From assembly GCA_021030905.1 (NCBI GenBank), contig JAGFMI010000011.1, forward strand, positions 806,001 to 870,000: a stretch of DNA of 64,000 nt, in the 5' to 3' direction. How positions within the stretch are numbered: the first letter of the stretch is position 1; the number at the start of each line of letters is the position of its first letter. The position numbers were made by a program, and so were the translations under genes. This DNA comes from Pyrenula massariospora (Eukaryota; Ascomycota; Eurotiomycetes; Pyrenulales; Pyrenulaceae). Below the pieces are notes generated by a model. The model searched no databases. It saw only the letters and a program-made list of their open reading frames with translations, and was not told the origin of the DNA. This document shows positions 7,102 through 44,828 of this stretch, piece by piece.

Positions 7102-7648
7102 ATCTCCCTATGCATCGACGGCTACAACGTCGACCACGAATACTCCACAGTCTGCGCATGCACTAAGGACGTGCTGACCCGAGTGTGCGCCAAGGTCGAC
7201 GAAGTCATCAAGCACAACCCTAGCAGCGGCCCTTCATCGTCGGGATCACACCCTGCAGAGCCTTCGGCGCCTAGCTCGACAGTCTCATGGCCAGCTCCTG
7301 CGACATCGTCAATATGCAGCGCTACTCCGGTGGCTTCGGCATGTTGCCGGAATGCTATCTGCCGTAAGGCGCCGTCGAGGACCTCGGCCCCGGCCAGACT
7401 GACCTACGATATCAAATCCAAGGCTCCGATCCGCAACGCCCTGGCGAGCAACACCATTTGGCTTGACCGCGAAGGCGCCTTGGACAGAGGTCTACGGCAA
7501 GAAGGTCGCAAGAATCCGGAGGTGGCGCCTCGGCTCGAACTGGGAGTTTGAGAATCTGACGCAGGTCCGGGTGTACAAGCTTGTCCGCGGGACGAAGGAG
7601 GAGGTCGACGGCAAAGCGCCCGATTCGGACCAGGTTAAGCAGGGATAA
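7102..7648 (+). pseudogene. Frame-broken coding relic, family uncertain
   Basis: Protein-like sequence moves between frames. A first segment reads ISLCIDGYNVDHEYSTVC at about 7102-7230. A second frame holds PFIVGITPCRAFGA, a stop, then MASSCDIVNMQRYSGG at about 7228-7350. A third reads VARIRRWRLGSNWEFENLTQ at about 7490-7570. The order and style (an IVGITP-like strand, DIVNMQRY, W-R-L-G-S-N-W) suggest a TIM-barrel-like secreted hydrolase such as a GH18-type protein. That identification is inference, and no complete catalytic motif is visible. Internal TAG and TAA codons and two frame changes make it a pseudogene, or less likely a gene with undetected introns. Confidence 0.35.
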
Positions 7649-20734: not shown

Positions 20735-21911
20735 TTTGAAATCTGTTCTGAGTTCTATGAATTGAAATAAAGAACCATTCGAGAGACACTAGCTAAATTT
20801 TTAGAGGTCGAAGACATGGACATGAAGGTGAAAGGGTAGTGGGCGGGGGTGTAAGTGATATTAGCCATTGCAATCAATGAATCGTACGGCGAGACAGGAT
20901 GAGCATAGGATTTAGCACGCCTGCTGATCCTAGCTCTTCCTGCGTTAAGGCATTTGTAGAGCAAGTCTAGACATCTGAACGCAGGGTGGTAAGATTCCTC
21001 TTAGTCTCTACGAATTCATGTGGCTGAGCTAAGGGCACAGGAGACATCGTTGCTCCATGGATCGGAGAAACCGAGGGCTGGCCTTGAAGTATGCCTGAGC
21101 AGGAAGGTCAGATAGACGTAGCGGGTACAGTTGCACGCACTGAGTAGCTCCATAGCTAACTCGGGGCCTAATCGTGAGCTATCGTATCCCAGGTCGGGTC
21201 GAGAAAAGAAGACCGAGAGGAGGATCGTCTGCTGCACCATGCTCACGTGGGTAGGCTAGCCTATCATAGAATAGCTCAGATATCGTAGTTTTCCCAACCG
21301 TTCTGCGCCCATCACTTGTCTCACACCCATACAAGTGGTAGATCTAGATTCCCGACATGAAGAGCTCTCATTCGGCATATCGGATTACGAGCATCCAACA
21401 GAATGGGAGACCACAGATCGGTGAAACATCGCCGCTGCCAGGGACAGTTCCACGACATGGGCCTAGAAGTTGGATGAAGGAGTCGAAGGACCCTTCAATA
21501 TTACAAGCGTGACCCTCTTCAGGCAGCACCAGCCTGGCATGGTAGTCTCCGAAAGACCTTGTTGTCTAGACCCTTGCCTCGTCCCAGATATCCCAATCGT
21601 GATGGGTTGAAACAGATTCCGAATGAAGAGTCGCGCAAGCTTTGAGGCAGTCTTCCTCTACACCCGGTTATTCCTGCCATTACTTATGGTAATGGACCTC
21701 TTGCTATGTCATTGGACTATTATCACCATGCCTAAGATGTATCCTACGGTCCCTATATGCCTAAATGATAGCCGCTCGAACAAAGACCCCTGTGATCATC
21801 TCATGCAGGTCCGCTGTGATGGAGACGATTGCTATGTAATTGCAAGCGTTTTTTCGCGTTCTTACTGTCTCGAGCATCTTCGATTCTGTCATACCTCGTG
21901 ACTTATGCAAG
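20735..21911. other. Divergent promoter region with a CACGTGGGT element
   Basis: This region lies between the divergent ERG26-like and P450 genes. No coding motif occurs in any frame. CACGTGGGT is at 21244-21252, roughly midway between the two starts. Confidence 0.5.
21244..21252 (+). promoter_or_regulatory. CACGTGGGT element, copy 2
   Basis: It sits in the shared upstream region of the ERG26-like gene (start 20734, minus) and the P450 (start 21912, plus), so one bound factor could act on both. Confidence 0.4.
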
Positions 21912-23727
21912 ATGTACCTCAAGGACAGTGTTGCATTGGACTTGAAGGTTCTCCATCTCATCTCGAAAGCCTGCCTGCATCCTACCCAGCCCAATTGGCA
22001 TGAGCTCTCCTGGTCGTGGAAATACTTTCTCTACGCTGTGGTGATCGTATACATATTTCGCTATATCTGGCATCGCTTTTTCTCATATCAAGGCCTACCG
22101 AAACATCTTCCCTGGGCGGGTGCCGAGCATAAGAGCATTGTTAGGAGAGGGAAAGCTTCCCTCAGAAGTCTTTTGAATCTGAATGACTTACTAGCTGATG
22201 GCTACACAAAGGTAAGCAGTCCTGTCGCCTTCAGAGGCGGTCAAAGTCTTCTTTGTGCTAAAACAGACCAGTATTCTAAGCATGGCAAGCCATTTGTTCT
22301 CCCAAACCTCTTCACAGGTCATGAAGTAGTTCTGCCGATGTCAGATATGCGATGGCTGCAAAAGCAAGCCGACGACATCCTTAGTCAGCATGAAGTCAAC
22401 AAACAATTCCTAAGAGCTGATTATACGATGTTAGACCATCGAATTATCGCCGAAGCACGCCTCAAGAATTTTATTCGACAAGAACTTACCAAAGACCTGG
22501 ATCATCACGCAAAGGATGTTGTTGACGAGATCGTGCAAGGCTTGGATGATTTATGTGGATCTGACACAGATCAGTGGAAGTCAATACCGGTTTATGATGT
22601 GATGTTGACAATTGTCGGTCGGCTCGTAAATCGAGTCCTCGTCGGGCTTCCGCTCTGCCGTGATCAAAGCTACATCGATGCGTCAACCAACTTTGCACAG
22701 TCCATCGTCATCACTGCTGGTCTCATTAATCTTCTCCCAGGCTGGCTACGACCAGTCCTGGGGCCAGTACTGACCATCTATGACCATAGACAAAGCCGGA
22801 AGCTGGCCCAAGTGATCGAACCGCTTGTTCGCCGAAGAGCTGCAGAGTTTACACTAGGGAAGTTCCCTTCTCGCAAAGACGGTTCAGAATATCCAAATGA
22901 CTTCATAACCTGGGCTCTGCGCGATGCATACAACGACGCAGATCCAAAGGAACGCTCTCCAGACCTTATCACCAACCGCCTCATAGTACTTGGTTTCGCT
23001 GCAATCCAATCCTCTGCAATTACCATCACCAACGCTCTCTTTGACATCGCTGCAACCCCCTCATCCATGTGTATCCAGCAGGCTCTCCGCTCTGAGGCCC
23101 TATCTGCTCCTTCCGGTTGGTCGCGCTTTACCCTCGCCAAGATGGTCAAAACTGACAGCCTCCTTCGTGAGAGTCTCCGGCTCTGGGGCTTCGTTAGCCA
23201 CGGCATCACCAAGGCTGTTGCTATTAAGGATGGAATTACACTTCCATGCGGGGTTTATCTTCCCTATGGCGCTAAATGTGGGATCGCGAGCTATGGGCCA
23301 CAACACGACCCTGATATTTACGACCATCCGTATAGATTCGAGCCTTTCAGATTCTGCACTGACAGTAGGTGTGAGAAGGATGCTACTCCCAGAACATTTG
23401 TCACAACTGGAGATTACTATATGGGCTTTAGCCATGGGAAGCACGCTTGGTAAGATACTCCTGCACCCTTAACTCTGCGAAGTCTAATAGTAAGGTGACA
23501 GCCCGGGACGCTTTTTCGCCTCTCAGCAACTAAAGCTCCTTCTTGCGCATATAGTTCTAAGATACGATATTGAACCCATAGCGCAGCGGCCCCTAAACAG
23601 GTGGCTGAACAACACAATTGCACCGCCGATGAGGGATACCCTCAGAATTAGGAGACGGAAAGAAGACGCTGATAGGAGTTTAACGGTACCAGATCGGATA
23701 GACTTTTCTAGACGCATTACCGCGTGA
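21912..23727 (+). CDS. Cytochrome P450 monooxygenase (fungal secondary-metabolism type)
   Basis: Exons 21912-23449 and 23502-23727 (intron 52 nt, GTAAGA...ACAG) give 587 residues. The intron splits the heme-ligand codon: TG|C rebuilds FSHGKHACPGRFFA with Cys513. Other marks are a membrane anchor near 38-56, the I-helix region VLGFAAIQSSAITITN in which the usual A/G-G-x-D/E-T-T is replaced by AIQSSA, and a K-helix ExxR in LLRESLRLWG. Sequences like this, with an I-helix lacking the acid-Thr pair and H-A-C-P-G-R-F-F-A at the heme, occur among ent-kaurene-oxidase-like and indole-diterpene P450s. The frame upstream to 21840 lacks an ATG, so 21912 is the start. Confidence 0.93.
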
Positions 23728-23842
23728 ACATAGTTAGCTTCTAGAGTTCTCATCCCTGTATACTATGAAAGTGATAAAATCACACTTGAAGAGTCTATTT
23801 TCGGGACATAGATCAGCCATCCTTAGCCGTTCATATATTCTC

Positions 23843-25702
23843 TTAGTTTCCACCCCCATCTACATCCGTAAATTTCTCCTCTCCCCTTCTTACAACTCTC
23901 ATTGGTACGCTCTTTCCTTTCATCCCTAAGGTGATTCCCATCTTCATCCCCTTCTGCCATATGTTTGTTCCCTCCTCTTTCCTTCGCTCCCATACTTGTT
24001 TCCTCTCTTCCCTACTCATCCCAGACAAATCACTACCTTCATCCTCCGTTCCAGCCAACTCCATCGAGTGCTCTCGCAGTATGACGGCTAGCACAGCCAG
24101 CACCTCGACTGTTGCAAACCTTCGCCCAGGACATGCTCGCGCTCCTATGCTGAAGGGTATAAACGCCCCCTTAGGCGGCTTGAAGAGACCGTTTTCAATT
24201 TCATCCACATCTTTCTCCACGTCTTTGTCGCGTTTCTCGGAGTCTATATCTAACCATCTGCCCACCTTGAATTCCTCCAAGTCATTTCCTGCATTTCCTG
24301 GCGGAAACGTCGAGCCCCTCTCCTTATCCCTCTTCTCATGCGGCCAGAACCTAGGATTTCGATGCACAGCAGGAATGCAGAGACGGACCAGCGTTCCTGG
24401 CGGAACAAACACCTCTCTCTCTATCTGTTTTCCGCCTTCGGATGCGGTCATCGTGAGATTTCGCGATACGTACGTGAACTTAGGAATATTGATAATACTT
24501 GGGAGTAGCCGTTGCTGCTCATATAACACCGCGACTAGTACACTAGATTGCAGAGCACTCATCAACTCTAAAGACCACTCCCCATTGCATTTCGCAAGAA
24601 TGCGGTCCAAATCCTTCTGTGCTTGTCGTTGGGCATCCGGATGCAAAGCAAGGAGGAAAAGACATGCATGTAGTGAGTGTGCGGTCGTCTCGTGGCCGGC
24701 AAGGAGGAGTACGAAAAGATTTCCAAGGAGGTCGGTGGGAGAGAGTGTCTGGTCCTGGGTTAAAGATGTAAGAATGTCAGGGCCTGCCATAGAGGTCTTG
24801 GACTCAGATGAATTTTTGCGTTGTGAGATGAGAGTATGCATATAATAGCCAAAGGAATTATATGCAGCGTAACATCTGCGAAATCTTGCGGAAGGGAAGA
24901 TTTTGAGAAGCCATTTCGGTATAACAATAATGGGAATGACGTTTCGGAGGATAAAGGATAAAGCTTCAGTAAATCCCATCTTTTGCCCACCCTGATCCAA
25001 GGCTCGACTTTCTGTGACCTCTTTGCTATTCGTGCTAAAGGGCTGCATCTTCCACCCCAGCGCTGCTCGGCTAATGACACTCAAGCTCAACTTCGTCATT
25101 TCATCTCCAGCCTTGGTTACAGGCTTGCTCCGACTGCTGCCTCCTGTCCAGGCTTCAAGCAAAGCCTTTCCCTGCTCTACGGCCTCCTCCCACACGAGCT
25201 TATTATTCTTCTCGGTGAAAGCTAGCCGCATTGCCTTGCGATGCCTCCGCCATACCTCGCCTTCGGACGCGACGACGTTCGTCCCATAGATTGAAACATT
25301 TCTGTACAACTGCGTCGCCTTGGGAAAGTCACCTTCTCGCTCGGTGATTTGGTCAATCACATTGGCGTCTGCCGTGTGAAGAATAAGCCCGCCCGGGGCA
25401 ACGGTGAGGAAGGTGTCACTTCCGAGGCGGACGAATGGTTCATAGCGGAATGTCCACGGCCAGGTCGATTTAACAAACACTCGCCAAGATGTAAGAGGCG
25501 GACCAGGAAAAAGTTTATCCAGTAAGCGGAGCGGATAGCGGGCCAGGAGCGTGATGGGCAAGTTGAAGTTGGAGTATGGGACGACGACATAGGGAATTCC
25601 GGATGACTTAGCAAGGTTGATGTTCTTCCATAAAGACCAAAGGTTGTTCACAAGGTACGCAGCAGCGAAAACTAGAGCTGCCTTGAGCGCCAAGGTGTAC
25701 AT
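23843..25702 (-). CDS. Cytochrome P450 monooxygenase
   Basis: A 619-residue intronless frame, longer than usual. The I-helix is LLAGHETTAHSL and the K-helix ExxR lies in YEQQRLLPS. The heme loop FIPFSIGARACPGRRFA has its Cys near 524. Extra length comes from a charged insertion before the heme loop (about 475-510, rich in Glu, Asp and Lys) and a C-terminal tail of about 60 charged residues (SREERKQVWERRKEEG). An N-terminal anchor covers roughly 5-25. Its stop lies 115 bp from that of the convergent P450. ER-bound; the substrate is unknown, and it is probably a tailoring enzyme of the same cluster. Confidence 0.93.
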   Translation of the reverse strand: MYTLALKAALVFAAAYLVNNLWSLWKNINLAKSSGIPYVVVPYSNFNLPITLLARYPLRLLDKLFPGPPLTSWRVFVKSTWPWTFRYEPFVRLGSDTFLTVAPGGLILHTADANVIDQITEREGDFPKATQLYRNVSIYGTNVVASEGEVWRRHRKAMRLAFTEKNNKLVWEEAVEQGKALLEAWTGGSSRSKPVTKAGDEMTKLSLSVISRAALGWKMQPFSTNSKEVTESRALDQGGQKMGFTEALSFILRNVIPIIVIPKWLLKIFPSARFRRCYAAYNSFGYYMHTLISQRKNSSESKTSMAGPDILTSLTQDQTLSPTDLLGNLFVLLLAGHETTAHSLHACLFLLALHPDAQRQAQKDLDRILAKCNGEWSLELMSALQSSVLVAVLYEQQRLLPSIINIPKFTYVSRNLTMTASEGGKQIEREVFVPPGTLVRLCIPAVHRNPRFWPHEKRDKERGSTFPPGNAGNDLEEFKVGRWLDIDSEKRDKDVEKDVDEIENGLFKPPKGAFIPFSIGARACPGRRFATVEVLAVLAVILREHSMELAGTEDEGSDLSGMSREERKQVWERRKEEGTNIWQKGMKMGITLGMKGKSVPMRVVRRGEEKFTDVDGGGN

Positions 25703-26763
25703 GGTGTTGACTGCCTCAAACGGCTACCTTCGCGCGCCTTTCTGGAGCTTAGCACACCGCAGATTCGATTGCGATGCAACTGGTTTCCAACGACTGTGCT
25801 CTGGGAAAAAGTCACGTGGGTTTTGACAAGGATGACCGAAGAAATCCGGAGAACGGTTAAGCGTTGCTAAGGTGTGGAACGGAATCCCTGACAATCGTCT
25901 CCCGTCGTTGGTCAGAATCTGGACTAAATGTCCTTGCCAACCAGGTCCCAAAGATCGTCAAAGAGTCGAAGGGCGTGACTATCTATGGTCGGGGTGGTCT
26001 GAATGCCGTTGTCCGACGCGTAACTCGCACACCACTGACACTCGGGATGTCGTTCCTTATGCAGTTAATGCCAGAACAAGCAGGAGGGAAACTTTAGACG
26101 GCCGAATCGGTTACCAGTCCGAGGAAGTCGTTGCTCAGCTCATCGAGTGGTCATCATCTGGAAGAACACTCGTTACAATAAGGAATCTGTTTCTGCTCTT
26201 TGTAGCGCCGGAAGGCTTACTTGCTCAGCAAGCCACCTGATAGTAGTGTTACACAGAGATCGCGAATCAATCAGGTACTGCTGACTCGAAAAGCTAGTGA
26301 ACGACGCTGCTAATTGATCCTTTCACCCAGGCGCCCGGTGGCTCGGGTTTGCCCTGCCAATGTTTCAAGGATCATCTACTAGGCTGAGAAGTCCCGAGAA
26401 AGCGAGACCGCGGGGTGGACCGGGCTTGGGGGCGGAAAGATGGTGTGTATTTGGGGCCTTCCTAGCTTCATACCACCGATACGCGAAAGTCGGTGTATTG
26501 CATTTTACAATCAAAACCGAGCTTTCGACTTTACTTGCACTACCTTAAGCGAAACATTCTTTCGAATCCAAACGATCTCAATAGGGCAAATAGACCCGCA
26601 ACTCGTCAGATGATAGTACATTTGAGCAGATTGTGCTCTACTTTGGTAGTGGCAGCTTCACGGCTCTTTGCGAAAGCTGGTAAGCCGTTCGATTCCACAC
26701 GTCAAGTTGCCTATTGCTCTTACAGCGCTTGATACTCTGTACTCTACACGTCCATGCTTAATC
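25703..26763. other. Divergent intergenic region with a CACGTGGGT element
   Basis: No gene was recognised. Overlapping short frames (25864-26240) have no motif and two lack an ATG. CACGTGGGT at 25813-25821 is about 110 bp upstream of the P450 start. Confidence 0.45.
25813..25821 (+). promoter_or_regulatory. CACGTGGGT element, copy 3
   Basis: About 110 bp upstream of the P450 at 25702 (minus), a typical position for a fungal activator site. Third copy of the nine-base element. Confidence 0.4.
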
Positions 26764-29035: not shown

Positions 29036-30189
29036 TCAGTCTAACAGGCTAGCTACCATCTTCTCACGATCATCGAGCGCGCAAGAGACACAATCTGATA
29101 GACCGCAAGCTTTTGCCTTGCCGCGCCGGAAGCCGTTCTTGAAAGCGCAACGTCCCATGTTACATTTGCTAAAAACAATTAGTCAATGTCCTCAGCCGTA
29201 AAAGGAGTATAGACTTACTTTGGCTCACTTGCGGGCATCATTATCCACATTGCAACGTGATACCGTACGTAAGGCTCTCTGATAAGATCGCTGCATGTCC
29301 GTACGAACTTTGACTGCATCTGGCTTTTCTCAACTACCTTCGCGAGTTTGTGGTCGATATTCAGCAATTTCCAGTCTATGCATTTCTTGCTATAGATGGG
29401 AATCACGATACGTATTCTTTGTATCGTGGAAGCTGCGGGTTTGAAGCCACCTTCTCTCTAAGTGCAGGTATTATAATCGTATGTATGAGAAAAAGTTTCT
29501 GGCTTACAAAGAAACATGTGCGCATCAGTATAAACCAGTAGATCACTCGGAATCCAGCAGCTTGTGTTTTTCAAGGCGATGACCTCAACTAAACACGACT
29601 CGAGCCAATTAGATGACATGGTAGAGTCAAGAGAGCTAACCAGGTAATACAAGCTATACACCGAAGGTATAGCCCAAGGGATCTGAATATTTAGAGTATG
29701 TAGATTTGGATATAATCGCAAAATCTCGGTCCAGTCCCCTAGAAAAGCATCTCCGGACATTGTGAGATGTAGTTCGCGTATAAATAACGCCTTGGTAGCA
29801 GGAATTTCCGTCGGAAAGGGTTTGTAACGATTGCCCTTGTCATAGTAAAAGGTAGTACTTTTGATGAAGACAGGCAAGGATTCCGCATGAATCTTCTTCG
29901 ACACCAACAACATGTCGCAAGGAGCATGATGGCAGCTGTGGACAGAGAGCTGTGGTCCCGCATAAAGAATATTTTGAATTTTTTGGCCGCACAGATTGAG
30001 GGGACGAGTTCTTGTCAGCTCGACATCGTAATGCCCGAAAAGGAGAGCATAGACACGTTCCCGTAGTTCTGGAGGAAGCCGCATGAAGGGAAATGGCTTG
30101 GAAACGACCGCACGGGCGGCCACGAGATCCTTTCGAGGTTTGGTAGATGATTTTGAGCCCATCTTAGAGCTGTACAAAGGACAAAGCAA
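29036..30189 (-). CDS. F-box/2EXR-like protein with Cys-rich tail
   Basis: Three exons (30189-29508, 29432-29219, 29168-29036) with introns of 75 nt (GTAAGC...GCAG) and 50 nt (GTAAGT...TGACTAAT...TTTAG) give 342 residues. Near residue 33 the block PFPFMRLPPELRERVYALLF is the L-P-x-E-L/I-R motif of fungal F-box-like/2EXR proteins. LLVSKKIHAESLPVFI and a leucine-rich stretch follow (LYPNLHTLNIQIP). The last exon adds a basic Cys-containing tail (NKCNMGRCAFKNGFRRGKAK, then ACGLSDCVSC). Such proteins are numerous and mostly unstudied in Pezizomycotina, with possible roles as ubiquitin-ligase adaptors. A second ATG at 30162 could also start the protein. The first intron's acceptor is the least certain point. 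Confidence 0.72.
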
Positions 30190-31534
30190 AGTGCTACTTC
30201 ACGACTGGGAAAACCAACAAGCTACAAGCAAGGAGTATGAGTATAGAGATCTAAGAAAGTCAAGACGTGGTATGGTTTCAAGGTACAGAAGATATAGCAA
30301 ATGAAACATGGCAAATATGACATTTTGCCTCTTGCTAAAGAAGCCGAGCAAGTATCATTTCCAAGGTACAAGCTAGCCGCTGACAGGAACGCACACAACG
30401 AGCGTGAAATTTGCAACTTAAAGGCCATATTTAGTGGAATTGATCATTAGGAAACTACGGTACAGCGCCTGCTAGGATTGATTCACTAAAAAAGTCCGTC
30501 ATTGAACCATGGGAAGAAATATGCTCGGAGCTTCCCAGAACCTGCTGCACGTGCAACACGACTCCTCAAACTATAAAAAATCACACAGGCATCACAGTGT
30601 GTGGTAGTCAAGTAGTCTACATCTGAAACTATTTAAGCAGAGATTGAGTATCTCGATGAAAGGTAATTGAAATCAAAGAGATCATTTCTCCAATTTTGTG
30701 CTCCGGTGAAGACGCTTTCTATTATTTAGGGAAGTTGTTCGGCCGAATTTTCTGGTCGGGACCTACGGTACTCTAAACACGGACCGTTTCCGCCTCCAAA
30801 GAATTCGAGGCTCGGTCTCAGAAGTTATCCCACATCTAGCATACGCCGGGCGCCCCCCAACATTAACAATCAGATACGCCATCACTTCTGAGAGGGTTGC
30901 CATCAGTTGCATCTCTAGCTCTTCCGCCTCAACCTTTAAGTATCTGTGAGAAGGCCCGAAGACCTGCTCCAGCCTCGTCCCTTTCGTGCTCAACAGCTTC
31001 AGTCTTGCACACGCTTACGACATTCGTCTGATCGGGGCTTTCATTATAGTAAAACCCCTGTACAGTAAACCCTTGACAAGCAACTGCCTTATCGCCCAAC
31101 CTTCAAGTACTCTTTCAATTTCTATAAAACAAGCTCTTCACAGAAGTATTTGTAGATCTGAGATTCCTGAAAGGTGGTCGTTAGTAGTTAAAAATGGTTT
31201 ATTTGACCTTTGAAAAGCGCAATTCGTGGGAAGCCCTGGATGCTTATAACGCGGTTTCACTTTGTAGGGATGGGGGCCAAAACGCGTTCTCCATTGCTTA
31301 GCGTGCGCCTCATTTGCTGCCCGACGTGCCTCTTGCGCAATGGTGCGCCACCAAATTTGCAAGGAATCTTCAGCTCCCAGCCTTGCTTTTCTTCTGTCGT
31401 TCTCCCCGCGGTCAGTGAACTAGCTATCTTTCACAATAGATGTATTTCTACCTCCCTGACAGCCTTTCGAGCCGGCAAGCCTAACCATATGACACCTTTA
31501 TGATCTAGAGTCGCTCCGAAGCAGCGACTAGCCA
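30190..31534. other. Intergenic, nothing recognised
   Basis: AT-rich. Short frames on both strands have no motif. The last 300 bases upstream of the NACHT gene are its presumed promoter. Confidence 0.45.
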
Positions 31535-34500
31535 ATGCCGAACCGTCTCTCAAAGATTAAGTTGCCTTGGAGGAAAAAGGAGCGTGAATCAAAAGGAAAG
31601 GATCCCAAGGCAGAACCACATCCTTTACCAGGAAACGTCAATCAAGCGTGTAACAACGACGATGGCGGCGACGGCGGATCTGTAGTGCAAACTGCTATTG
31701 CAGCGCAATCCACAGCTACAGCGCAATCTACAGTGGCTCCAGGGCAGTCCGCAGTTGCCATAAGTGGTAATGCCGTAGTTGCCTCAACTGGTAATAGTGC
31801 AGGTCTACCACCAATTGAAAAGGTGCGCAAGAGCAAATTTGGGTTACTACCGTTGCAGCCAAAAAGCCAGCCACCTCCAACTACACAAGATGCATCAGAT
31901 ATCACGCCGGAGCAGACTTATCCCGTAGACATTGTAGCACTTCATGGCATTACGGGAGATGCATATGACACCTGGACTACTGAAAATGACGTCCTCTGGC
32001 TGAGAGATTACCTCTTGGAAGATCTTCCTGGCGCTCGTCTTTTCTCCTTTGGCTATGATGCTCAAGTCTTCTTCACCAAAGCCACAGGCAACCTCGACAC
32101 ATTCGCAACAGCTCTACTAGAAGGCTTAATACAGAAGCGCACCAAAAATGTGAGTTTCGCATGAAAGTGTGACTTATCCGAGCGTTGACTCTGGGCCAGA
32201 ATAGGAAAAGGCCCATCATCTTCATCTGTCATAGCATGGGTGGTCTGGTGGTAAAGAGGGTTAGTTATTCTTTTCAAGCTCGAGACTTTTGCCAAAATTA
32301 ACCTTTCGTCCTGAGCCTGCAGGCGATCAATGTTGCCGTCCTTCAAAGCTCCATTTATGGGGACATCCAGAAATCGTGCTACGGCATCGTTTTCCTATCA
32401 ACGCCGCATCGAGGTTCGGACGTCACATCATTCCCCAAGTTGCTTGCAAACATTGCAAATCTTGCAACACCGTGGCTTGCTGGGGTGCTAGGACGCTCTC
32501 GCAAGGACCTCATTGAAATGTTGCAAAAGGATGCCAATGACCTCCACAAGCTATCTATGGACTTTTCAGAGCGGCTATTTCATATTAAAATTGCCTCGTT
32601 CGTCGAGCAAAAAATCACGTCTCCTGCAAATAGTCGCGTAAGGTCTTCCCACAGTTGCGGTTGGGTCAAATGCTAACTACCTGTGGAGATTGTTGATGAT
32701 ACCACGGGGGTCATCGGGTGCGCAGGAGAACGCAGAATTCCAATGCAGGGTTGCGATCATAGTACAGTCTGTAAATTCTCTTCAAAAGACACCAACTACG
32801 ATCTGGTCCACGGGATAGTGGAACAATGGTCCAGCGAGGCTACAACTGGTGAAATAGGTACTTGACTGGAAATTTTCGCGATTGAATTTGATTTTGATTT
32901 TAGTTAGAAGATGATGATAGCCAACTCATACTCGGTAAGCTTACAGTATTGCGCGCTTTTTGTCTCCATGTTTACGTGAAACAAGACTGTCGCAAAAGTC
33001 TACAATTCCCCGAGATGACGTTTCGAAAAATCCAACTAGTCGATGAGGTTCCAAAAGGCTCTCCAAATGCATGCGACTGGATCTTTAAACACTCAGCCTT
33101 TGTTCAATGGAATACACGAGCGGAAGGGCCACTATGGATCAAGGGCAAACCAGGTGCAGGTAAGTCGACTCTGGTCGAGCACTTGATTGAGCACTTTGAA
33201 CGTCAGCAGAGGACGACCAACGACATCTTATTGTCCTTCCTCTTCAACGCTTTCGGAGTCCAGGGTCTTCAGAAGTCGTCTCTTGGTCTTTACCGAACAC
33301 TGCTAGACCAACTCCTTAAGCAAGCGCCTTCAACACTGGAAGACTTCATGAAGTTCTGTGCGGAAAAATGGAGGCTCGCCCCTGAGTCAAAGGACGATTG
33401 GCACGAAATCGATAGCAAACGTCTCCGTTGGTACCTTAATGGCGCCCTGGCGAAGCTCAAAGGATCCCCACGAGGAGTATTCATATTTGTTGATGCAGTC
33501 GACGAAGCCACCGACGGAAGTATTGATGATATTGTCACGCATCTCCACCAGCTGGACAAGACGCTTCGAAAAAATGGCGTAAGGGTGCAGATATGCATCT
33601 CTTGTCGCCATTTCCCCATCTTGCCTTCTATCACGAAACATATCGTCATCCTAGAACACGAGAATCATGATGATATTGCCACTTATGTCGATAGTTATTT
33701 TGAAGATTCTAACATAATTGGTCGAGACGGCTACGAAGCGTCTGGTTTTCTGGAGAAGCTCAAATCTGAAATTAAGACCAGGTCCAATGGAGTCTTTCTC
33801 TGGGTGCGTTTAGTGACACCCCAAGTCATTAGACGCTTAAATTTAGCTCCAGCAAGAACAGACACTGTTATCGCTGTTCTGGGCGAGGTTCAGCCACGGC
33901 TTGGAGAGATATACGCCGATATTCTCAGCAACGTGATCGATCCAGAGAACCGATTTGATGCGTACATGCTTCTCGATTGGGCCACGACAAGATCCGCCCC
34001 CCTTAAACTCTTTCAATTGGTTTCCGAGGTCAAATTCTCGGACGCTTATTCTGTTGACCCCGAAAGCTATGATTCTGAGCTTCCTCAGATTGAGTTCCGG
34101 ATTGGCAGCCTCTCTGGTGGATTAATGGAAGTTGTCCTGGAAGCCGATGGTCGGCTTGCTATATTCATTCATCCAACAGTCAAAAGATTCCTCCTCGAGG
34201 ACGGTCTTCGAGTCTTCAAGCAACTTTTCGACAGCTCTCTCCAGCCTCGTCCAGCTTCACCAGAGGCAGAGACCCATCAGGATATTCTAGACTCAATGGA
34301 TCATCACACCGAAAGGGATCATCATCTCGAAAGCCTAGACTCAGTCGAAGAACATATGGAAAGGTTAGATTATTTTGGACACCTAGAAAGCCCAACCTCG
34401 GTCGAACAACACACCCCAAGCCTGGATTCGATAGATCTACATCTCTATAGCCCAAACTCAGCTAATGATCATTCCGAGAGCCTGGTCCCTTTTGGCAGAC

Positions 34501-35734
34501 GACGTACCACAGTTGCTAGTGGAATATGTAAAGATCCGTCAAACGAAAGAGCTTCTGAAGCGGAAAGAGCTTCTGAAGCGGAAAGAGTGCTTAAAGCGGA
34601 AAGATTGCTTAAAACGGAATCCTCCGTCCAACGAGTTTCAACTAGGATGCTAGAAATCCCACCAAGTGAAGAAAATCTAGGTGATTCTTTCGCGGTAGAG
34701 ATTGATTTGCGCGAAATGAAGGATTCAAAGTCAGTCTATGTATCACTGCGCCGCCCAAAGAACAGAGCTAATATATGCTTAGCGCACACATGGCACGCAA
34801 ATGGATTGAAAGATGGAAACAGCAGAGTTTGCCCTTGCTTTCAGAAATCACTCGAGGACATACACGTATCAAGGTTGCGATCCTGGATGTGAATAAATAC
34901 TCTCTGTCGCGCTATACTCCCACATGTATAGACAGAGTTAAAGGGTTCTGGACGCCAAACAAGCCGCCAGCCAAGAACCCCGGGGATCACGGGGCTGATC
35001 TCAGTGCAATCTTCACAATGATAGCTCCAGATGCTGATATTTTTCTGGCCTTGCTCCCCGAATCTCCCAGGATTGCAGCCTCTCACGTAGTCAAGGTGAG
35101 TCTCAGGCTTTGACACCCTTTGAACTTTCTTATCTCATCGAATCTCCAGGCGCTCAGATGGGCAATTACAGGAAAAGTAGATATCATCGCCATGACGTTC
35201 AGCTTTAGGAGATGGTCTGCCGAGGTCTTTGAATTGCTCCGTCGAGCGAATCTTGAAAATATTTTGGTATTTGCAGCATCCGGTGGCCAGTTGTTTAGCA
35301 GTACCAACCTTGACAACAACACAATTTCCATCAGCTCGGCAGACGGTTATGGCCGTTCCTCCGAATATAATGCTCCGCCATTGACATATGGTGAAAACTT
35401 TGCTGTACTTGGCGAAGGCATTGGTATCCCGCTAGAGACCTCGAGAACGGATAGGACACTATCAGGGTTTTCCATTTCGACTGTCATTGCCTCAGGAATA
35501 GCCGCTGTTGTTCTCCAACTTGCTAATCATTTCAGATCCACGCACCGTGATCGAGAGCGTCCTCTAAAGATGCTCCATTCCAGGAAAGGGATGACGCTCG
35601 TATTCCGATACATGAGTTCCAGTAGATCAAGCGAATATGCTTATATTACGCCTTGGAAATTACTTGACAAAGAGGTTGGCATTGAATCTGTGGGCCACAA
35701 ATTACACTCCATACTCGATGATGGAGCTGTATGA
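31535..35734 (+). CDS. NLR-like STAND protein: alpha/beta-hydrolase + NACHT + subtilisin-like (S8) domain
   Basis: Eight exons (31535-32149, 32200-32259, 32323-32637, 32689-32857, 32908-32934, 32986-34729, 34783-35095, 35150-35734) with introns of 49-63 nt, all GT-AG, sum to 3,828 nt and one frame of 1,275 residues. Residues 1-125 are low-complexity. An alpha/beta-hydrolase of the SERAC1/lipase-like kind follows (DIVALHGITGD, nucleophile elbow CHSMGG with S217, FLSTPHRGSD). Then FPEMTFRKIQ leads into NACHT: Walker A GKPGAGKST at 449-457 and Walker B VFIFVDAVDEA near 560-570. Residues 827-940 hold short acidic and Glu-Arg repeats. The C-terminus is S8-like: D1012 in VAILDVN, H1046 in DHGADL and S1189 in GFSISTVIASG, with the oxyanion Asn replaced by Gly (AASGG). 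Exon 5 is a 27-nt micro-exon. Known fungal NLRs act in non-self recognition and cell death; that role here is inference. Confidence 0.85.
34545..34616 (+). repeat. Four tandem 18-bp coding repeats
   Basis: GAAAGAGCTTCTGAAGCG occurs twice identically (34545-34562, 34563-34580), then twice in changed form (34581-34598, 34599-34616). They encode an E-R-x-x-x-A/T hexad inside the linker between the NACHT and S8-like parts. Exact DNA identity of the first two copies points to recent slippage, so copy number may vary between strains. Confidence 0.85.
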
Positions 35735-36942: not shown

Positions 36943-38750
36943 TCAGATAAACTGATGAAACCCCGGCGTTCCTAGAGCCTGCCGCCAACGCTGCCCATAC
37001 CTCATCAGCAGCAGCATCGGCAGCCAGCACACCAACAAGATCAGCGCGAACGTCGTCCACGCCCAACCGTACCCGATCTTCCCGGCCAGCTGCAGCCCAA
37101 AGAAACCAACCACAAACGATAAGCCCCTTGCCAGATTGAGGAGCACGCCACTTTCGGGCGTCTGTGGCTTGTAGCAGTCGCTGACGTAGGCGTAGATGCA
37201 CGTGGAATTTATCTGGAGGCCGAGACAGCCTAGAAGATGAGCCAGTCAGCGAGGGTCTGGTAAAAGATCGCTGTCGGAAAGACCTAACCAATAGCCAGCC
37301 CCACAAGCGGCGCAATATAGTGCGTATGCCGCTCAATACACCACCCGAATATGATCATCCCCACGGGCATGAAGATCGCTGCACTAGGGGTGAGGTACAA
37401 GCGATGCTCCGGGATGCGGATGCCGTTGTTGCGCCGCGCAAGTCGGTAGATGATGTGATCGCTGAGCTTTCCGGCGGAGAGCTCGCCGATCAGGGTGCCG
37501 ATGAGCAGGGAGACGCCGGTGCAGGCGCCGATGGGGCCGGCTTTGAAGTGGTATTTGGCGGTATAGATTTTGGCCATGGAGATTGCGGGGAGGACGTTGA
37601 TGCTTGAGTGGATTAGATCGGTGGGGGAACAAAGGGGGGGTTGTAGGAGCGTACAATGTCCAGGACCAGAGGTAAGACCAAAAGGGGATTGTGATGCTTG
37701 GGTATTTGAGCATGTAGAAGGAGGTGAAAAAGTCCATTGCCTTCAGCTTTCGCCCGGGTATCATGTTTCCTCGTAGGTTGAAGAGCATGTCCCAGTAGCT
37801 TCTCTCGCGGGTACGCTCTGATAGAAAGCCATGGTGCCGTGAGAAGAGTGTTTCGGGGAGCAGAAAGACCGCTACGAGCATTGAGACGGCGGTGACAATG
37901 CCTGGCATCCAGTAATCCTCCAAGCAGGTTAGCACAGCCCTCTAGAGTAGTTGTCTGGTCACATACCCACTGCCAGCCAACAGATTGTCCAAGAAATCCT
38001 CCCACTAAGATTGGTGTCAGTGGCCAGGAACGCTTTCGAGCAGCAAGATACCTACTAATAGCTGCAATGTGCGCACCATTGGTAACAAAGATAGCATATA
38101 CTCCGGACTTCTCGCCCATCTCGTGAAGATAGAACATATCAGTTATGCAAGCACTGCCAACCTTAAGATATGGTCGTTAGCCTTCCTGTGCAAAACCATT
38201 GGTATACACGTACACTCATCATGCCGCCCATTCCACATCCATTGATGGCTCGACTCACGACCAAGGAAGTAAACGTCTTCGATTTCGCTGCCCCAATCTG
38301 CCCAAATACAGCAAAAAGCGGCGCCAGGAGCGTGACCGGCCTTCTTCCATAATAATTCGTCAATGGCGCCCATATGAACGAAGCAACGCCCCCAAAAATG
38401 GTAGCTGTCGTAGTCGAGTAAGTCACTTTCTCCACAGTGTGATGAAAAGCATGGCTCAGAAGCACTAGGCTTGGATTGATGACCGCGGCATTGAAAGGGC
38501 CCAAAAAGGCCATAAAGCTAACTTGGACCAGCACTGTCCATTTAAGCCATCGCGGCCAGTTCAGAGGGTCGTCTTGCCACTGGCTTGGTTGGGGTATCAA
38601 TGGAAGACCGTGAACATCGAGCTTGAGACTCGAGATATCAGACTGTTTTTCCGCTTCACCGAGCTGGTCGATACCGAGCGTCTCGGTTGTTGTCTCATGG
38701 TACTGTTTCTGGGCTGAATCTCTGGTTGGTGAATCAGTCGTGCCAGCCAT
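36943..38750 (-). CDS. MFS transporter, DHA1 type
   Basis: Six exons (38750-38214, 38161-38056, 38004-37967, 37917-37655, 37602-37289, 37229-36943) with GT-AG introns of 51-59 nt give 514 residues. The sequence holds DPLNWPRWLKW just before helix 1, a typical DHA1 mark, then YYGRRPVTLLAP (motif A) and SRAINGCGMGGMMS-VGSACITDMF. GGFLGQSVGWQW (motif C region) and LPETLF follow, and the second half has LSDHIIYRLARRNNG. About 12 helices are visible. Exon 3 is only 38 nt. It diverges from the flavin monooxygenase gene at 39453, with about 700 bp between, suggesting co-regulated uptake or efflux of an aromatic compound (inference). Confidence 0.92.
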
Positions 38751-39452
38751 GATGACTGTGTTCAGGGTAGGCTGGCAGGAGTGTCATTTCCACGTCTGGC
38801 CATGACGACGAGGCAAGAAACCTTCTCGATGAACAGCTTCTTGCCCCCAAAATGGGCTGGCTCGGTATTTCCCTGCCGAGGCATAGCCAGGCCACGTCAT
38901 GGCATTCTAATACGGACGGCATCAGGTAGTGGTTGACCTAAGGCTTAGGCCTGTTATGGGAACACCTAGTCGACATGGTTGTGAGTGGTCTTGCAACCTG
39001 GCGAGGATCAAGAAAGTAGCAACGTGGGGTCGCTACGCGTATGAGGAGATGGAAGGATCGATGTCGGAGACACCCGTTAAAGTACCTCAGCTGACATATG
39101 CAGGGCAAGGCGCAGATGGAATTTACATGCAACACTGGTTAGACAAGCCGGTCTTGGAGCCGGCTTTCCAGGTGCAAGAAGGGAGGCTCAACGCCACGGC
39201 AATTGGGTGGGTAGGAGAAAGATACAGGGGTGGCGAGAACGGATATGCAGATATCCGCAAGCGAGCTTTGACAGTCACTGTTGTGCTTATATGGTTCTTG
39301 TTGATTGTGTGACAAGAAATTTATGATGCGATTGCCTTTTTCTGTAGACGACTGAATTTTTTCTCGTTCTTTTCTATTTTTGCGTTTTGACCTTCAGGAA
39401 CCTAGCCCTAAGAGCTTTCCCACTTTCCTTTTCGGTCTATGTTTGACCCAAA
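38751..39452. promoter_or_regulatory. Divergent promoter region of the MFS and monooxygenase genes
   Basis: A 127-codon plus frame at 38929-39312 begins with GTG and has no motif; it is treated as non-coding. A pyrimidine-rich run lies at 39330-39430, just before the ATG at 39453. Confidence 0.4.
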
Positions 39453-40872
39453 ATGGTGCGCTGGAGGTATTCCACGGCTTTGAACTACACGACTGACATG
39501 TTGGATAGCATATCATCATTGTTGGCTGCGGTCTCGCCGGCCTCGCCGCGGGAATCGCCCTAGCAAAGGCCGGCCACGAGGTCGACATTCTCGACAGTGT
39601 TCCTAAGATCACCTATATCGGCGCCGGTAAAGCTATCCTCTCTGAAACCGTCCAAGACCGCCTTCAAATCTCTCTGACAATTGGCCCCAAGGCATTCAAG
39701 TCTCTCCTAACTCTTCTCACATTCTCCGCGCCCTCGGCATCGCCCCCTACATCCTGCCCTATTGCACGGAGCCAATCTCCTTACGCATGATGCGTTGGCA
39801 AAATGGTCAAATTCTCGTCGATATCCCGCTCAAGCAGCCCTCCCTCGATAATTACCACTCCCCTTACTGGCACATCCACCGCGCGGACTTCCACCGCGGA
39901 CTTCTGGCTTGCGTCACCGACCTCGGAATCAAGACCTACCTTTCCAGCCGCGTCGTCTCTGTTGACCCAAGCGTTCCCTCACTTACCACTGCGGAGGGTA
40001 AGGTGTTCTATGCGGACCTCATCGTCGCTTCCGACGGCCTGCACAGCACCCTCCGCGACTTCGTGGTGGGTTCCCCCTCTCCACCAGTACCCACTGGTCA
40101 GCAGGTCTACCGGGTCACCTTACCCGCGTCCCGCCTCCAGGGTCTAGGCTCCTCCTTCGACGAGCTAATCACCATTCCACGGAACAACCACTGGATTGGG
40201 CCGCATGGAACCGTGCTCAGCTATCTCCTCGAAGGCATTGATCAAAAGCTCCTCAACCTCGTCTTAACAATTGACACAAGGCTTCCAGACGGCGTGAACC
40301 AGAAAGCTGGCTCCCACGACGAGGCACGTAAAGCATTTTGCGGCTGGGATCCGCGAATCGATAAAATCCTGGAGCATGCGGAAAGTATCCTGGAATGGCG
40401 GCTTTACACCCATAATGAGATCTCAAGCTGGGTGCACTCAGACAATAAAGTCATTCTCATCGGCGACGCGGCGCATGCAATGACACCATACCTCGCGCAG
40501 GGGGCCGCAATGGGGATCGAAGATGCGGCGATTCTCGGTGGAGTCCTGAAAAAGTACCCCTCGAAGGAGGCGTTGGGAGAGACGCTAAGGATGTACGAGC
40601 AGCTGAGGATTGAACGGACGGCACGGGTGGCCAAGGCAAGTATTGGGAGCCGCTGGTTCACGCAGATGGAGGATGGGGGAGAGCAGAGGAGGAGGGATGA
40701 GTGGCTGTTAAAGCATCCGGGGATACAAAAGGGGCATATTAATATCAGGAGTGATAAGGATTTTTTGGATTTTTTGTTTGGGTATGATGCTTATGAAGCT
40801 TTAGAGGAAGCGATAAGGGAGAAAGAGAAGGAAAAGAACGGTGGAGCGAACGAAAAGGCGGCGGGAACGTGA
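39453..40872 (+). CDS. FAD-dependent aromatic monooxygenase, salicylate-hydroxylase-like
   Basis: The proposed exons are 39453-39455 (ATG only), 39509-39626 and 39692-40872; introns of 53 nt (GTGCGC...ATAG) and 65 nt (GTAAAG...CAAG) give 433 residues. The first join makes MHIIIVGCGLAGLAAGIALA, the FAD-binding GxGxxG at the very N-terminus as the family expects. The second rebuilds IGAGIQVSPNSSHILRALG. Downstream are the DG motif (VASDGLHSTLRD), a GDAAHAMTPYLAQGA motif that binds the FAD ribityl-phosphate, and IEDAAILGG. These are group A flavoprotein hydroxylases that use NAD(P)H and O2 on phenolic acids. The C-terminus ends in a Lys/Glu-rich tail. No other in-frame ATG exists upstream of the FAD motif. 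Confidence 0.9.
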
Positions 40873-42389
40873 GCTTTATTGCTCAAGGTCTTCGCCGACA
40901 GGATAGGTAGTTCAGGATCGCGTCCCCCGGCTGTCGGCGCAACGAGACGTTGGGGGAAGCTTGGCGGAAAGATACAAATGCACAGTCCTTAGCGGCGGCT
41001 CTGTCTCTAATAAGCAGGGCCGAAAGAGGCAATTAAATCAAGCTATGTAAAGAATGGGATTGAAAACAGAGTGAGAAGTTCACCTCACGGATATTACTAG
41101 TTTTTTTGTCCTCGAAAGATGAGCCTAGGTCTTAGAAGTCACGTGGCATCTGGCTATTAATATTGGCGTCCGCCCGGGATATATTACATATACCATGACT
41201 CCTGACACCCAGCCTCGTGTAAGCCGCTAAAAGGGGTGAAGGGGGCAAGGTGGAAAGTGACCGAGATGTAGACGTTTCAACAGTTGAGTTGCTGGTGTGG
41301 GCACCGCGGCAGGAGGCCGCCAAGGACCCAGATTTGCGTGCCGGGCTCTCCCCCTTCGGGCGTGAGGGTAAGGCCTTCGGGCCTTCGGCCGCCTCATAGC
41401 TTACCTAGTTAGATCGCGCGAGCCTCAACCCTTTGTCAGGGCCTGCCTAGGTATTTCAGTCTTCTAGGGCTGTCAGCAAGAGTCGTGCCATCACGGGGCC
41501 ATGGCTTCCAATAATAATTGGAACAATGAGGACATCTTATTTCAGGAGGCCCATTCAGGCCGCGCTGGGAGCTTTCCTCCTGACCTTTGCAGCACACAAT
41601 CGCTGCGAGTGCTAGAAAATTGAGGAGACGTGCGGCATGGCTGCCCGAGAGACAAAGGAACTGGCGATGCGATGACTATTTAAGGCAGAACTCAGCCCAA
41701 ATGTCCCATTAATTAGGATTGGCCCGGAAGTGCGGATACTCGGGGACCGTAAGGCTACTGTTCGATCTCTGTTTAGAAACTTTCTGCGCAATCCTGATTC
41801 TTGCCGTATGTTCAACCAGCTGCACAAGCCTAGGCGTCTTAGAAGGCAGACTTGCTCGAGCGCACTTGGTTCCACGAAATTTAATGAGGCTACTAAGCTA
41901 GACGAGAGGCGCAAAAGTTACGTTCTACTCCCCTTCGCTGGGTTCAGCATTTATGGCTCTTATTGCTTAATATGCTTCATATGAGAATCTGTTGTTATGA
42001 AAACTTATTCACTTGGCGCGCAAGAATCTGAGTGATTTACAACTTAGTCGCCGAACAACCTCACCAGTCTAGCTCATTCGCGCGGCTGTGCCCGACACCC
42101 CAAAGACAAGAGATTTTACCTTGCCAGGTTACAATGTGTTTCCAAGGCTGCAGAGCGCTGCATTTGCTCCTCTTCGTGTAGCCAACCCCCGTCAAGAGCC
42201 CTGGTCCCATTCATAGCCACGAAGATTCTATTACTGTAGGTTTCACAATCTTTCAGCTCCTCGTTCTTGCATGTGGCAGGAACTATTCTTTGATTTCCGC
42301 TAGAGACTGGATACCGATTTAAAAGACCAGGAGCCTGAAGCAGACTTTCACTCTCTACAACCTTAGAATTATCATCACTGTCAACGAAA
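40873..42389. other. Intergenic, with a GC-rich hairpin patch
   Basis: No gene was recognised. Around 41345-41395 the sequence turns GC-rich and self-complementary. AGGCC-TTCG-GGCCT (41371-41384) is a perfect 5-bp stem with a UUCG tetraloop, followed by another GGCC/GCC pairing. Frames at 41612-41984 are open on both strands without motifs. Confidence 0.5.
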
Positions 42390-44828
42390 ATGGCCGAAAC
42401 ACAAGCAGCTGTCAGCTACCCTGTTTATATCGGTATCTGGACGAATTGGTCCCTCGGGGGAAAAGTCACCGGATTGACCCTCACTCTGGATCATAATAAT
42501 GGAGCAATTCTGACGACTTTTCTAGCAGTCTTCGTCACTTTTACAGGCTCTAGGCTCTGGCGCATCGTCTGTTTTGTCTTACATCAGCTGCTTCTATCTA
42601 GGAACAAGGCTCAAGACGGACTATATCATCAACGCCAAGCGATCTTACGTAACGCCAACGACGGAATAATTGGCTTTTTAAGCTTTCTGCGTATATTATT
42701 TGCGTGGCGGCGAGTTTCTCATAAGCCATTCAATCGATTAGTTCCCGTTATTGGAATCTCTTTCTCAATCTTTTCTGCGGTTACGTTCGGCGGTATATTC
42801 TCAGCAAAAATCAGCTCGAGTATGGGGAGCGAAGTGCTTATTTCCAGTCCAAACTGTGGCATTCCCATCTACACTGCCAACTCCTCCGCAAACATTGAAC
42901 AATTTATGAATATATATGCGCCGTGGCAAACCCAGCGCATTACTTCGTTTGCTAATTATGCTTTGAGGTGCTACTCAAGTACTTCCGGGACGGGTTCCTC
43001 AGGAAGCCGTGGCTGTGAGCCATTCGTAAAGAAAAATCTTCCTAGTCAGATTGATCGGAATGCTAGTTTTCCTTTTAAAGAAAAGATATGTCTTAAAGAG
43101 TATGGAAACCTTAAAATCGATACAGGCTATATTCAATCTCAAGATCTTGGATTAAATTTGCCTGTCAATCTTCGGTATAGTTTCAGAAAAACTCTACATT
43201 GTGCCCCAATAAGGAGCAAAAATAACCAAAAGGCTGTTAATTACTCTCAAGATAAGCCTTATATGCAATACTTCTATGGACAGCGATGGAAAACGCCTGG
43301 CCCACCAATCCCTTATACGTTTGCTGTTGAACAGCAGTCAGCTGAGGAGATAGCCTGGCGGTCTTACAATTATCCAGACGCGGATTATCGAATCCAGTAT
43401 GATTTCTCGCCAACGATATAGGTCTATACAAATGATTACCTATACTGACCTTTACTAGCGTGGAAAATTGTCAAATCAATAATGGGGCTTGTGATAGAAA
43501 TTACTCAACATTTACCCCAATACAGGAGCTCGCGCAAACTGATAGCGATCTGACTTTAATTTTTCTTTTAGCGACAAACGTACGATATACTGAATCCGTA
43601 GACGACAGCTGGTATTCTGCACATCGCCCAACAATCGATATCATGCACCAGTTTGGATATAATGAGAGTCAAAGCTATTTCCTATCAGACGAACCAGCTT
43701 CCGTTTTGGGATGCAAAGAGCAGTACCAGCACTGCGATCCAACTCTATCGCCTGACCAAGGCTGTTCTGCTTATGAAGGTTATGAAGCAATCCACAGTCA
43801 AACAGCAGCGACCAAGAGGGAACAGGCTCTTTACTGGAGCTCAGGCCTAACTCCCTTATCGGAAGTAATTACCGACCTTCGATCATTCGCTCTGTCCGCT
43901 AGATTTGGTCTAACTCAGTCTACGCAAGGCTCATTGCCGGTAAATCAATGGCAGCGGGAGGTCGAATTTTGGCATAATATAATTTTAATTTGTTTTCAAG
44001 GTTTCCTAATCAACAATGCTATAGGTCCAGGAAGTCAAGAAATATTTGAAAATTTCTGGCAAAAGCCGACCAATGATCTGCAGAGATATATTTGCAAGAA
44101 TTATGTATGTCCAAAGTCCAGTCCGCTCGTCTACTTCTTTTTATCATTATCTTGGAAGACCCTTTTTTACCCTTCCCTTTAACCAGAGCAGCGTGATTCG
44201 AGCTTCAATTTACCTTTAAGTGCTAACGATTCTGTAGAAAATTGTTTCCACTGCGCACGGAAACTTCTCAATTGTGTGGCTTTTCCTTGTTTTTACTATT
44301 GGGATCTTAATTATCCTTCTTGAATTATCGTTACAAAGACTTTTTGTCTGGCTAAAATATTATTCTATCATCAAAACTACAACCACAGAATGGTTTGGTA
44401 ATGATGTTCTCCAGCTTCAACGATTAGCCCATGAAGAACTTGGATTAGGAGACTGGAAAGGCTGCAGAGAAGACAAAATTCCGGTTACGCAAAAAGGCCA
44501 GCTTCTTGGAATCTTCAGCGCAGCAAATCCAGATCATCCAAAGCTTATCAACCCGAACGCAGATTCCAAGAAACTTCAACAGACTATAACTAGTAGTGGA
44601 TCCAGCGATCTTGGATGCGCAACCGATATAAGCAAGGAGGAAGTCATCACAGACCACTACATCGCCTTAAAAAGCAACAGTCATAGAAGCATTGGCAATC
44701 ACAGCGCTGGCAGCTCCCAGGCCGAACAACAGACCGACAATACTCAGCCGATAAGTATTGTGGCTAGTTCATTGAAAGGTCAAGCAGTATCGCTGCGCAG
44801 CTCTTCTGAGCAGATTCGGACGCCTTGA
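42390..44828 (+). CDS. Large fungal membrane protein with Cys-containing ectodomain (unknown function)
   Basis: Exons 42390-43396, 43459-44104 and 44238-44828 (introns of 62 nt GTATGA...CTAG and 133 nt GTATGT...CTAAC...GTAG) give 747 residues. Hydrophobic helices lie near 48-75 and 126-146, and one strong helix near 565-590 (WLFLVFTIGILIILLELSL). Between them is an ectodomain with paired cysteines (PNCGIPIY, LRCYS, SRGCEPF, VENCQINNGACDRNYS, LGCKEQYQHC, QGCSAYEG) and several N-glycosylation sites. The C-terminal tail of about 150 residues is polar and Ser-rich. This layout matches an abundant unnamed Pezizomycotina family, sometimes mislabelled in databases. No catalytic motif was seen. Confidence 0.8.

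Follow-up and report, generated by a model that had tools for sequence, protein, structure and literature searches.

What does an enzyme domain do when it occupies the place in a fungal receptor where a sensor is usually found? Fungal NOD-like receptors (NLRs) are considered to act through their N-terminal part and to sense through their C-terminal part (PMC9815663, PMC12258605). A gene at positions 31535-35734 on the forward strand of the DNA analysed here, a 64,000-nucleotide (nt) window of contig JAGFMI010000011.1 from Pyrenula massariospora, is predicted to encode an alpha/beta-hydrolase at its N-terminus, a NACHT-type core, and a subtilisin-like Peptidase_S8 (S8) domain at its C-terminus. 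On the basis of its sequence, we give about an even chance to the reading that this protein is an NLR with a sesB-like hydrolase as effector and an S8 tail that serves as an integrated sensor or decoy.

Whether the three domains belong to one gene depends on a spliced reading of the locus. The open reading frame and splice reading gives eight predicted exons that total 3,828 nt, or 1,275 codons plus a stop, with zero internal stops, and these are the same figures (eight exons, 1,276 codons) that a preliminary description of this DNA had reported. All seven introns are 50-63 nt long and run from GT to AG. Around 32857-32986, 109 splice choices preserve the frame; the pair picked has consensus-like donors and yields a 9-residue exon, and the product around this exon aligns with that of a relative from Venustampulla (GEIEDDDSQLILDC versus GEIGGHELSRLQLDC). 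The preliminary description also held that each join restores a family motif. Most joins do align through in the relatives that cover them, but the join 34729/34783, which leads from the NACHT exon to the S8 exon, lies within a variable linker and has no sequence support across it from relatives. We accept this join because its intron is canonical and contains a branch-like GCTAAT at 34767, because the frame is kept, and because fused relatives exist. As a separate observation, retention of this intron would end the frame at 34892 with loss of the S8 part, a possible isoform switch.

Two adjoining genes, with the S8 gene starting near 34776-34786, would account for the fact that the NACHT and S8 frames differ at 34729/34783, that this join sits in a variable region, and that ATGs are present where S8 begins. 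We nevertheless judged this candidate very improbable given the canonical 53-nt intron with its branch-like element, the fusion predicted in four relatives, and the congruence of the NACHT and S8 trees described below. The prediction that the hydrolase, NACHT, and S8 parts form one gene rather than neighbours is supported by the frame, the canonical introns, and the fused relatives.

Pfam recovers the three domains that had first been read from motifs. DUF676 matches residues 133-318 (5e-8), NPHP3_N matches residues 424-603 (2.7e-27), and Peptidase_S8 (PF00082) matches residues 1050-1209 with 26.9 bits against a cut-off of 21.8 (3.8e-6 for the whole protein and 3.3e-7 for the domain alone), while the NACHT model PF05729 reaches 24.1 bits and remains below its cut-off of 26.7. 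The hydrolase elbow CHSMGG is spelled C-H-S-M-G (G-x-S-x-G type) and the downstream His is present, as are both Walker motifs. The last 298 residues match subtilisin BPN' in the PDB (4.7e-8); a PDB sequence search with the hydrolase part alone gave nothing useful. The window gene is not among the 15 matches of a six-frame, whole-genome PF00082 search, which fits a weak S8 match that is split by an intron. As noted earlier for this protein, no repeat array is visible: ankyrin, TPR, and WD repeats are absent from its 18 Pfam matches up to 0.1, and only a short 18-nt (6-residue) tandem repeat is found within the linker (34545-34619). The predicted protein thus appears to be NLR-like by its core without being a canonical tripartite NLR, with S8 replacing the C-terminal repeats.

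The preliminary description knew of no described system with this exact layout, which is rare but does recur. In a full-length search, the 7,994 candidates with the most words in common were scored and 179 proteins emerged; four of the best 120, which were listed, carry NPHP3_N followed by S8. These are P0001 from Venustampulla echinocandica (Leotiomycetes; 880 aa, with a deposited model that begins inside the hydrolase), P0007 from Apiospora saccharicola (Sordariomycetes; 1,227 aa), P0008 from Apiospora sp. TS-2023a (1,185 aa), and P0009 from a metagenome (849 aa, beginning at NACHT). The two full-length proteins, P0007 and P0008, have DUF676, NPHP3_N, and S8 all above the Pfam cut-offs, and so the same three-domain order is found in full in Apiospora. 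In P0001 and P0009, NPHP3_N and S8 exceed the cut-offs (S8 in P0001 with 21.9 bits versus 21.8). After these, beginning with P0010 and P0011, the listed matches are proteins of the NPHP3_N/NACHT type, most of which have ankyrin repeats. With residues 960-1275 as query, six proteins out of 4,531 candidates were found, and a third search with the S8 part of P0007 returned 17 rows, namely P0007, P0008, P0009, and 14 others that are mainly DUF7580-S8 and TPR-S8 proteins. Because these searches depend on 5-residue words in common and on a similar length, the NPHP3_N-S8 family may be larger.

All five fused proteins cluster together both in a tree of 38 NACHT cores (support 100/100, with some long branches elsewhere) and in a tree of 20 S8 sequences (92/92). 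The inner branching is identical on the two trees, ((window,Venustampulla),(metagenome,(Apiospora,Apiospora))). It would therefore appear that the two parts have descended as a unit, and this speaks against separate genes as well as against more than one fusion event. An end motif, MSSSR...PWKL, is common to all five. The simplest reading of these sequences is that the five hydrolase/NACHT-S8 proteins constitute one family with one origin, which we infer to have come about through replacement of ankyrin repeats.

The S8 domain of the window protein keeps the Asp, His, and Ser that the preliminary description had assigned to it. However, DTG has become DVN and the oxyanion-hole Asn is gone, and for lack of this Asn we do not class the domain as a proven active S8 protease. 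Subtilisins with a replaced oxyanion Asn retain reduced activity. The comparison was made across 20 sequences, consisting of the window protein and the matches of the residue 960-1275 and P0007-S8 searches, minus P0131, P0134, P0138, and P0139. All 15 S8 proteins outside the family have Asp, His, and Ser, and 14 of them have the oxyanion Asn (one has Asp). Within the family, the Asn is gone in three of five (the window protein, P0001, and P0009) and ambiguous in the remaining two, P0007 and P0008, where a nearby Asn is left unplaced by the alignment. P0009 retains the Asp, His, and Ser, with a Ser in the Asn column, and the Ser motif of P0008 is shortened. In P0001 the His is replaced by Leu, and the deposited protein reads the Asp stretch in a different frame: its segment SKLRFWMW fits a shifted reading of KVAILDV at this place only, among 873 positions, and no such fit arose in 300,000 random draws. 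Thus, the P0001 gene probably still encodes the Asp motif in another frame, and the difference stems either from an annotation error or from a genuine shift of frame. The Pfam E-values for S8 run from 7e-23 (P0009) through 2e-18 (P0007), 5e-9 (P0008), and 3.8e-6 (window) to 1.2e-4 (P0001).

Sequence conservation differs among the parts of the protein. Between the two Apiospora proteins, identity amounts to 89% for the hydrolase, 77% for NACHT, 70% for the helical part, 18% for the linker, and 57% for S8. In all ten family pairs S8 identity is lower than that of both NACHT and the helical part, which makes S8 the least conserved folded domain, and in six of six pairs the conservation of S8 is below that of the entire part that precedes it. 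For other S8 proteins (DUF7580-S8, TPR-S8, and alike), S8 is more conserved than the rest in 9 of 11 hand-picked pairs, a reversal that serves as a pointer and not as a test statistic because the pairs share members and the N-terminal modules differ. Hydrolase identity exceeds that of NACHT in each of the six pairs that cover it (three use an 80-column piece in P0001), and, with the window protein counted, the hydrolase Ser is kept in 3/3 proteins covered, the His in 4/4, and Walker A and B in 5/5. Among these predicted proteins, the hydrolase is the best conserved module and its motifs are intact.

The AlphaFold model discussed here represents the relative P0008 rather than the window protein (mean predicted local distance difference test score, or pLDDT, 69; predicted template modelling score 0.44). 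Its Foldseek matches are subtilisins, monoacylglycerol lipases, and Cdc6/ORC-type ATPases. VIA-align of the top matches places lipases and phospholipases over residues ~73-355 (one row to 505) and NLR/CED-4 structures over residues ~357-936 (one row from 100). These rows mostly concern the hydrolase, with some NLR, and have little bearing on S8, so the S8 assignment rests on Pfam (window protein and relatives), the PDB sequence match, and Foldseek. The N-terminal tail and linker have a pLDDT of about 30. Because the relative placement of domains in the model is not trustworthy, we make no claim regarding their packing.

We favour a sensor or decoy role for S8 because it stands in the sensor's place, is the fastest-changing folded part, and has partly lost its active site, and an effector role for the hydrolase because it is the best conserved module with intact motifs. 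A sensing S8 part, which the preliminary description had offered as its own alternative, fits these observations better than two effectors. The mechanism might run as follows. The N-terminal sesB-like hydrolase would be the effector and the NACHT/NPHP3_N core an ATP-driven switch. The S8 domain, most likely derived from cytosolic HET-Q2-like S8 proteases, would have replaced an ankyrin sensor; its kinship to fungal multidomain S8 proteins is seen in the searches and in the S8 tree of 20 sequences, of which HET-Q2 itself is not one. Carried on a long, loose linker, the S8 fold could bind, or be attacked by, a non-self protein, for which a protease inhibitor or a protease aimed at real S8 proteases is a candidate. 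Contact with this ligand might relieve autoinhibition and let the NACHT core form oligomers, whereupon the hydrolase, now clustered, could act on lipids or esters such that the cell is killed or arrested.

Several points weigh against this proposal. The window protein retains Asp, His, and Ser, P0007 and P0009 still have ordinary-looking S8 domains, and the site of P0007 may be complete. Faster change in S8 may be a sign of relaxed constraint and not of sensing. The conservation reversal could partly reflect differing N-terminal modules, shared pair members, and the two N-terminally incomplete members. The S8 grouping of 92/92 falls under the tool's 95 mark, and the family comparison involves only five predicted proteins.

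Possible partners of S8 proteins in the host genome (37.8 Mb, 33 contigs) bear on the alternatives. The hydrolase-NACHT part has at least 68 matches there, a count that takes in the exons of the gene and comes from scoring 65 of 130 candidates. The S8 part has no close copy: apart from the gene, its only matches are at C27 (33% identity) and C32 (25%). At both loci adjacent open frames give TPR and S8 matches, and a gasdermin-like gene of ~300 codons is found at each, some 1-2 kb away from the S8 match or frame, an arrangement with which published S8-gasdermin two-gene clusters agree (PMC10989679, PMC10197012). Except for a 29-codon scrap at C20, these two genes are the sole relatives found of each other. 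Their two-sequence profile matches RCD-1 (8jyz, 1.9e-7) and HET-Q1 (9uv9, 4.8e-6) in the PDB; the C27 protein alone matches HET-Q1 (9uv9, 6.6e-8), and the C32 protein (P0140) alone gives one weak unrelated row and no gasdermin. A genome-wide comparison places no relatives of these genes in the window. The gasdermin model PF04598 has 0 matches genome-wide, which means little alone because it also misses the C27 and C32 genes. Beside the window gene, a gasdermin partner was not recognised by Pfam, PF04598, or PDB searches of three frames, although divergent or spliced ones could escape: frames 42339-43418 and 29461-30198 have no PDB match, and frame 43436-44179 has chance-level rows only.

These loci have features of their own. 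Within C32:704500-713500 (3751-5592 on the minus strand and 6726-7646 on the plus strand), one frame carries La (RNA-binding) and S8 domains, with a weak TPR match in an overlapping upstream frame and the gasdermin-like gene ~1.1 kb away, and this could possibly be an RNA-linked S8/gasdermin pair. Within C27:1583500-1592500 (3670-5531 and 6000-6980, both on the minus strand), TPR and S8 frames adjoin the second gasdermin-like gene. The piece at C20:359246-359332 (plus strand) comprises 29 codons, shares 90% identity with the end of the gasdermin-like gene at C27, and has one in-frame stop; it is probably a remnant.

The preliminary description had raised the idea of two working effectors in one protein. 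Here S8 would be activated by proximity when NACHT oligomerises and would cleave a cell-death substrate alongside the hydrolase. The retained triad makes this possible, P0007 and P0009 likewise keep Asp, His, and Ser with strong S8 scores, published S8 proteases activate fungal gasdermins (PMC12881547, PMC10989679), and the two gasdermin-like host genes could provide, for example, a substrate made elsewhere and reached in trans. Yet the oxyanion Asn is gone in three members, the His is lost in P0001, the Ser motif of P0008 is shortened, S8 is the least conserved folded domain, and no gasdermin-like gene was recognised near the window gene within the limits of the searches. The idea is weakened accordingly, and we regard it as somewhat unlikely.

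An S8 domain that instead cuts the linker, and thereby releases or activates the NLR, would follow a logic comparable to that of the FIIND of NLRP1. The window triad and the long variable linker directly before S8, with its low pLDDT in the P0008 model, would suit such self-processing. Because the linker is conserved in neither length nor sequence (4-30%) and P0001 is missing the His, we consider it improbable. Finally, the tail might be a decaying passenger, a fused relic under relaxed constraint and without a role, as could be suggested by the wear of different active-site residues in different members and by S8 profile scores that fall across the family. A relic sits poorly with an open frame and a shared end motif in all five proteins, and with an S8 tree that follows the NACHT order in Leotiomycetes and Sordariomycetes copies, and so it is similarly doubtful. 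A sensor or decoy role for S8 remains our preferred reading, and a more specific version, which is unlikely on present evidence, would have the NLR guard a fungal pyroptosis-like pathway. Its S8 tail would be a bait copied from gasdermin-activating proteases, such that an invader, mycovirus, or rival strain that disables these proteases would trigger back-up death by the N-terminal hydrolase.

Table 1. Features of the predicted hydrolase-NACHT-S8 gene, in window positions.
Feature	Position	Strand	Remarks
Whole gene, hydrolase-NACHT-S8, NLR-like	31535..35734	+	8 predicted exons, 1,275 residues; model, Pfam, relatives
Predicted exons	31535-32149, 32200-32259, 32323-32637, 32689-32857, 32908-32934, 32986-34729, 34783-35095, 35150-35734	+	
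Predicted intron, NACHT exon to S8 exon	34730-34782	+	53 nt; splice model
N-terminal tail, residues 1-125	31535..31909	+	Ser/Ala/Thr-rich, poorly conserved; 23-37% identity, 3 pairs
Alpha/beta-hydrolase (DUF676, sesB-like), residues ~126-370	31910..32808	+	introns 32150-32199, 32260-32322, 32638-32688
Putative nucleophile Ser217 of CHSMGG	32233..32235	+	role suggested by motif
Conserved His354 of GCDHSTVC	32758..32760	+	candidate catalytic His
NPHP3_N/NACHT NTPase, residues 424-603	33069..33608	+	Pfam 2.7e-27
Walker A, GKPGAGKST	33144..33170	+	
Walker B, FVDAVDE	33486..33506	+	
Helical part of NLR core (presumably winged-helix), residues 606-815	33615..34244	+	39-70% identity, 10 pairs
Variable linker, residues 816-976	34245..34729	+	4-30% identity
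Peptidase_S8 (subtilisin-like) domain, residues 977-1275	34783..35731	+	intron 35096-35149; Pfam, PDB
Asp1012	34886..34888	+	LDVN versus usual LDTG
His1046	34988..34990	+	DHGA versus usual GHGT
Place of oxyanion-hole Asn, FAASGG (versus FAAASN)	35270..35287	+	gap at Asn column; reading by eye
Ser1189	35471..35473	+	SGFSIST

The N-terminal tail also contains a 24-nt direct repeat at window positions 31749-31795, SAVAISGNAVVASTGNSA. A Pfam-only scan of ten frames between 19.6 and 44.2 kb, a subset of the frames there, assigns DUF7730, hemerythrin-domain, two P450, MFS transporter, and FAD-binding frames to the neighbourhood of the gene. The flanks at 19604-25723 and 36943-40869 hold P450s, a 3-beta-HSD-like reductase, an FAD-binding oxidoreductase, and an MFS transporter, a mix that resembles a metabolic cluster. 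At 42339-44179 there are two adjacent long open frames with no Pfam match and no meaningful PDB match.

Several known systems share parts of this layout. Hydrolase-NACHT-ankyrin NLRs such as P0010 (Venustampulla), P0011 (Hyaloscypha), and P0014 (Botrytis cinerea) have a homologous core (35-36% identity over 56-63% of the query), but carry a C-terminal ankyrin array where the window protein has S8, and fall outside the group of five on the NACHT tree. P0002, an NB-ARC-TPR-S8 protein from Cercophora sp. LCS_1, is NLR-like and also ends in S8 (residues 931-1250 of 1258); in contrast to the window protein it has NB-ARC and TPR by its listed Pfam domains, no DUF676 among them, and keeps Asp, His, Asn, and Ser. 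The HET-Q2/Q2L S8 proteases that control gasdermins (PMC12881547, PMC10197012, PMC10989679), of which 18 Q2L architectures have been described, likewise place a fungal S8 in a multidomain protein. The window S8 differs in lying C-terminal to a hydrolase-NACHT core, with a worn site and no recognised gasdermin neighbour, a contrast drawn with the published type. NLRs with an N-terminal Peptidase_S8 (PMC4986451, PMC9815663) also combine S8 and an NLR core in one protein, whereas here S8 is C-terminal and the hydrolase occupies the N-terminus. Double-effector fungal NLRs (PMC10197012) likewise have two effector-type domains, although theirs are consecutive at the N-terminus. The C-terminal PKinase integrated-decoy candidates of Sordariales NLRs (PMC12258605) are also enzyme-derived fusions to NACHT with an apparent single integration, but there a CHK-2-like kinase follows a complete tripartite NLR, whereas in the window protein S8 replaces the repeats.

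The hydrolase-NACHT-S8 layout was not found in the accessible text of the literature searched, and a prior mention elsewhere is possible. Within that scope, what is new is the C-terminal S8 on a hydrolase-NACHT core, given that S8 in NLRs, double effectors, and C-terminal decoys are already known. The surveys cited here place S8 as an N-terminal NLR domain and C-terminal repeats as the sensor (PMC9815663, PMC4986451), and the activating cues of this receptor group are described as unidentified (PMC10197012). If our preferred reading of S8 as sensor or decoy is true, an enzyme of a death pathway can turn into the module with which a fungal receptor senses. NLRs and the S8/gasdermin pathway would then be connected in a concrete way that can be tested, and a class of ligands would be suggested for this receptor group, namely protease inhibitors or proteases.

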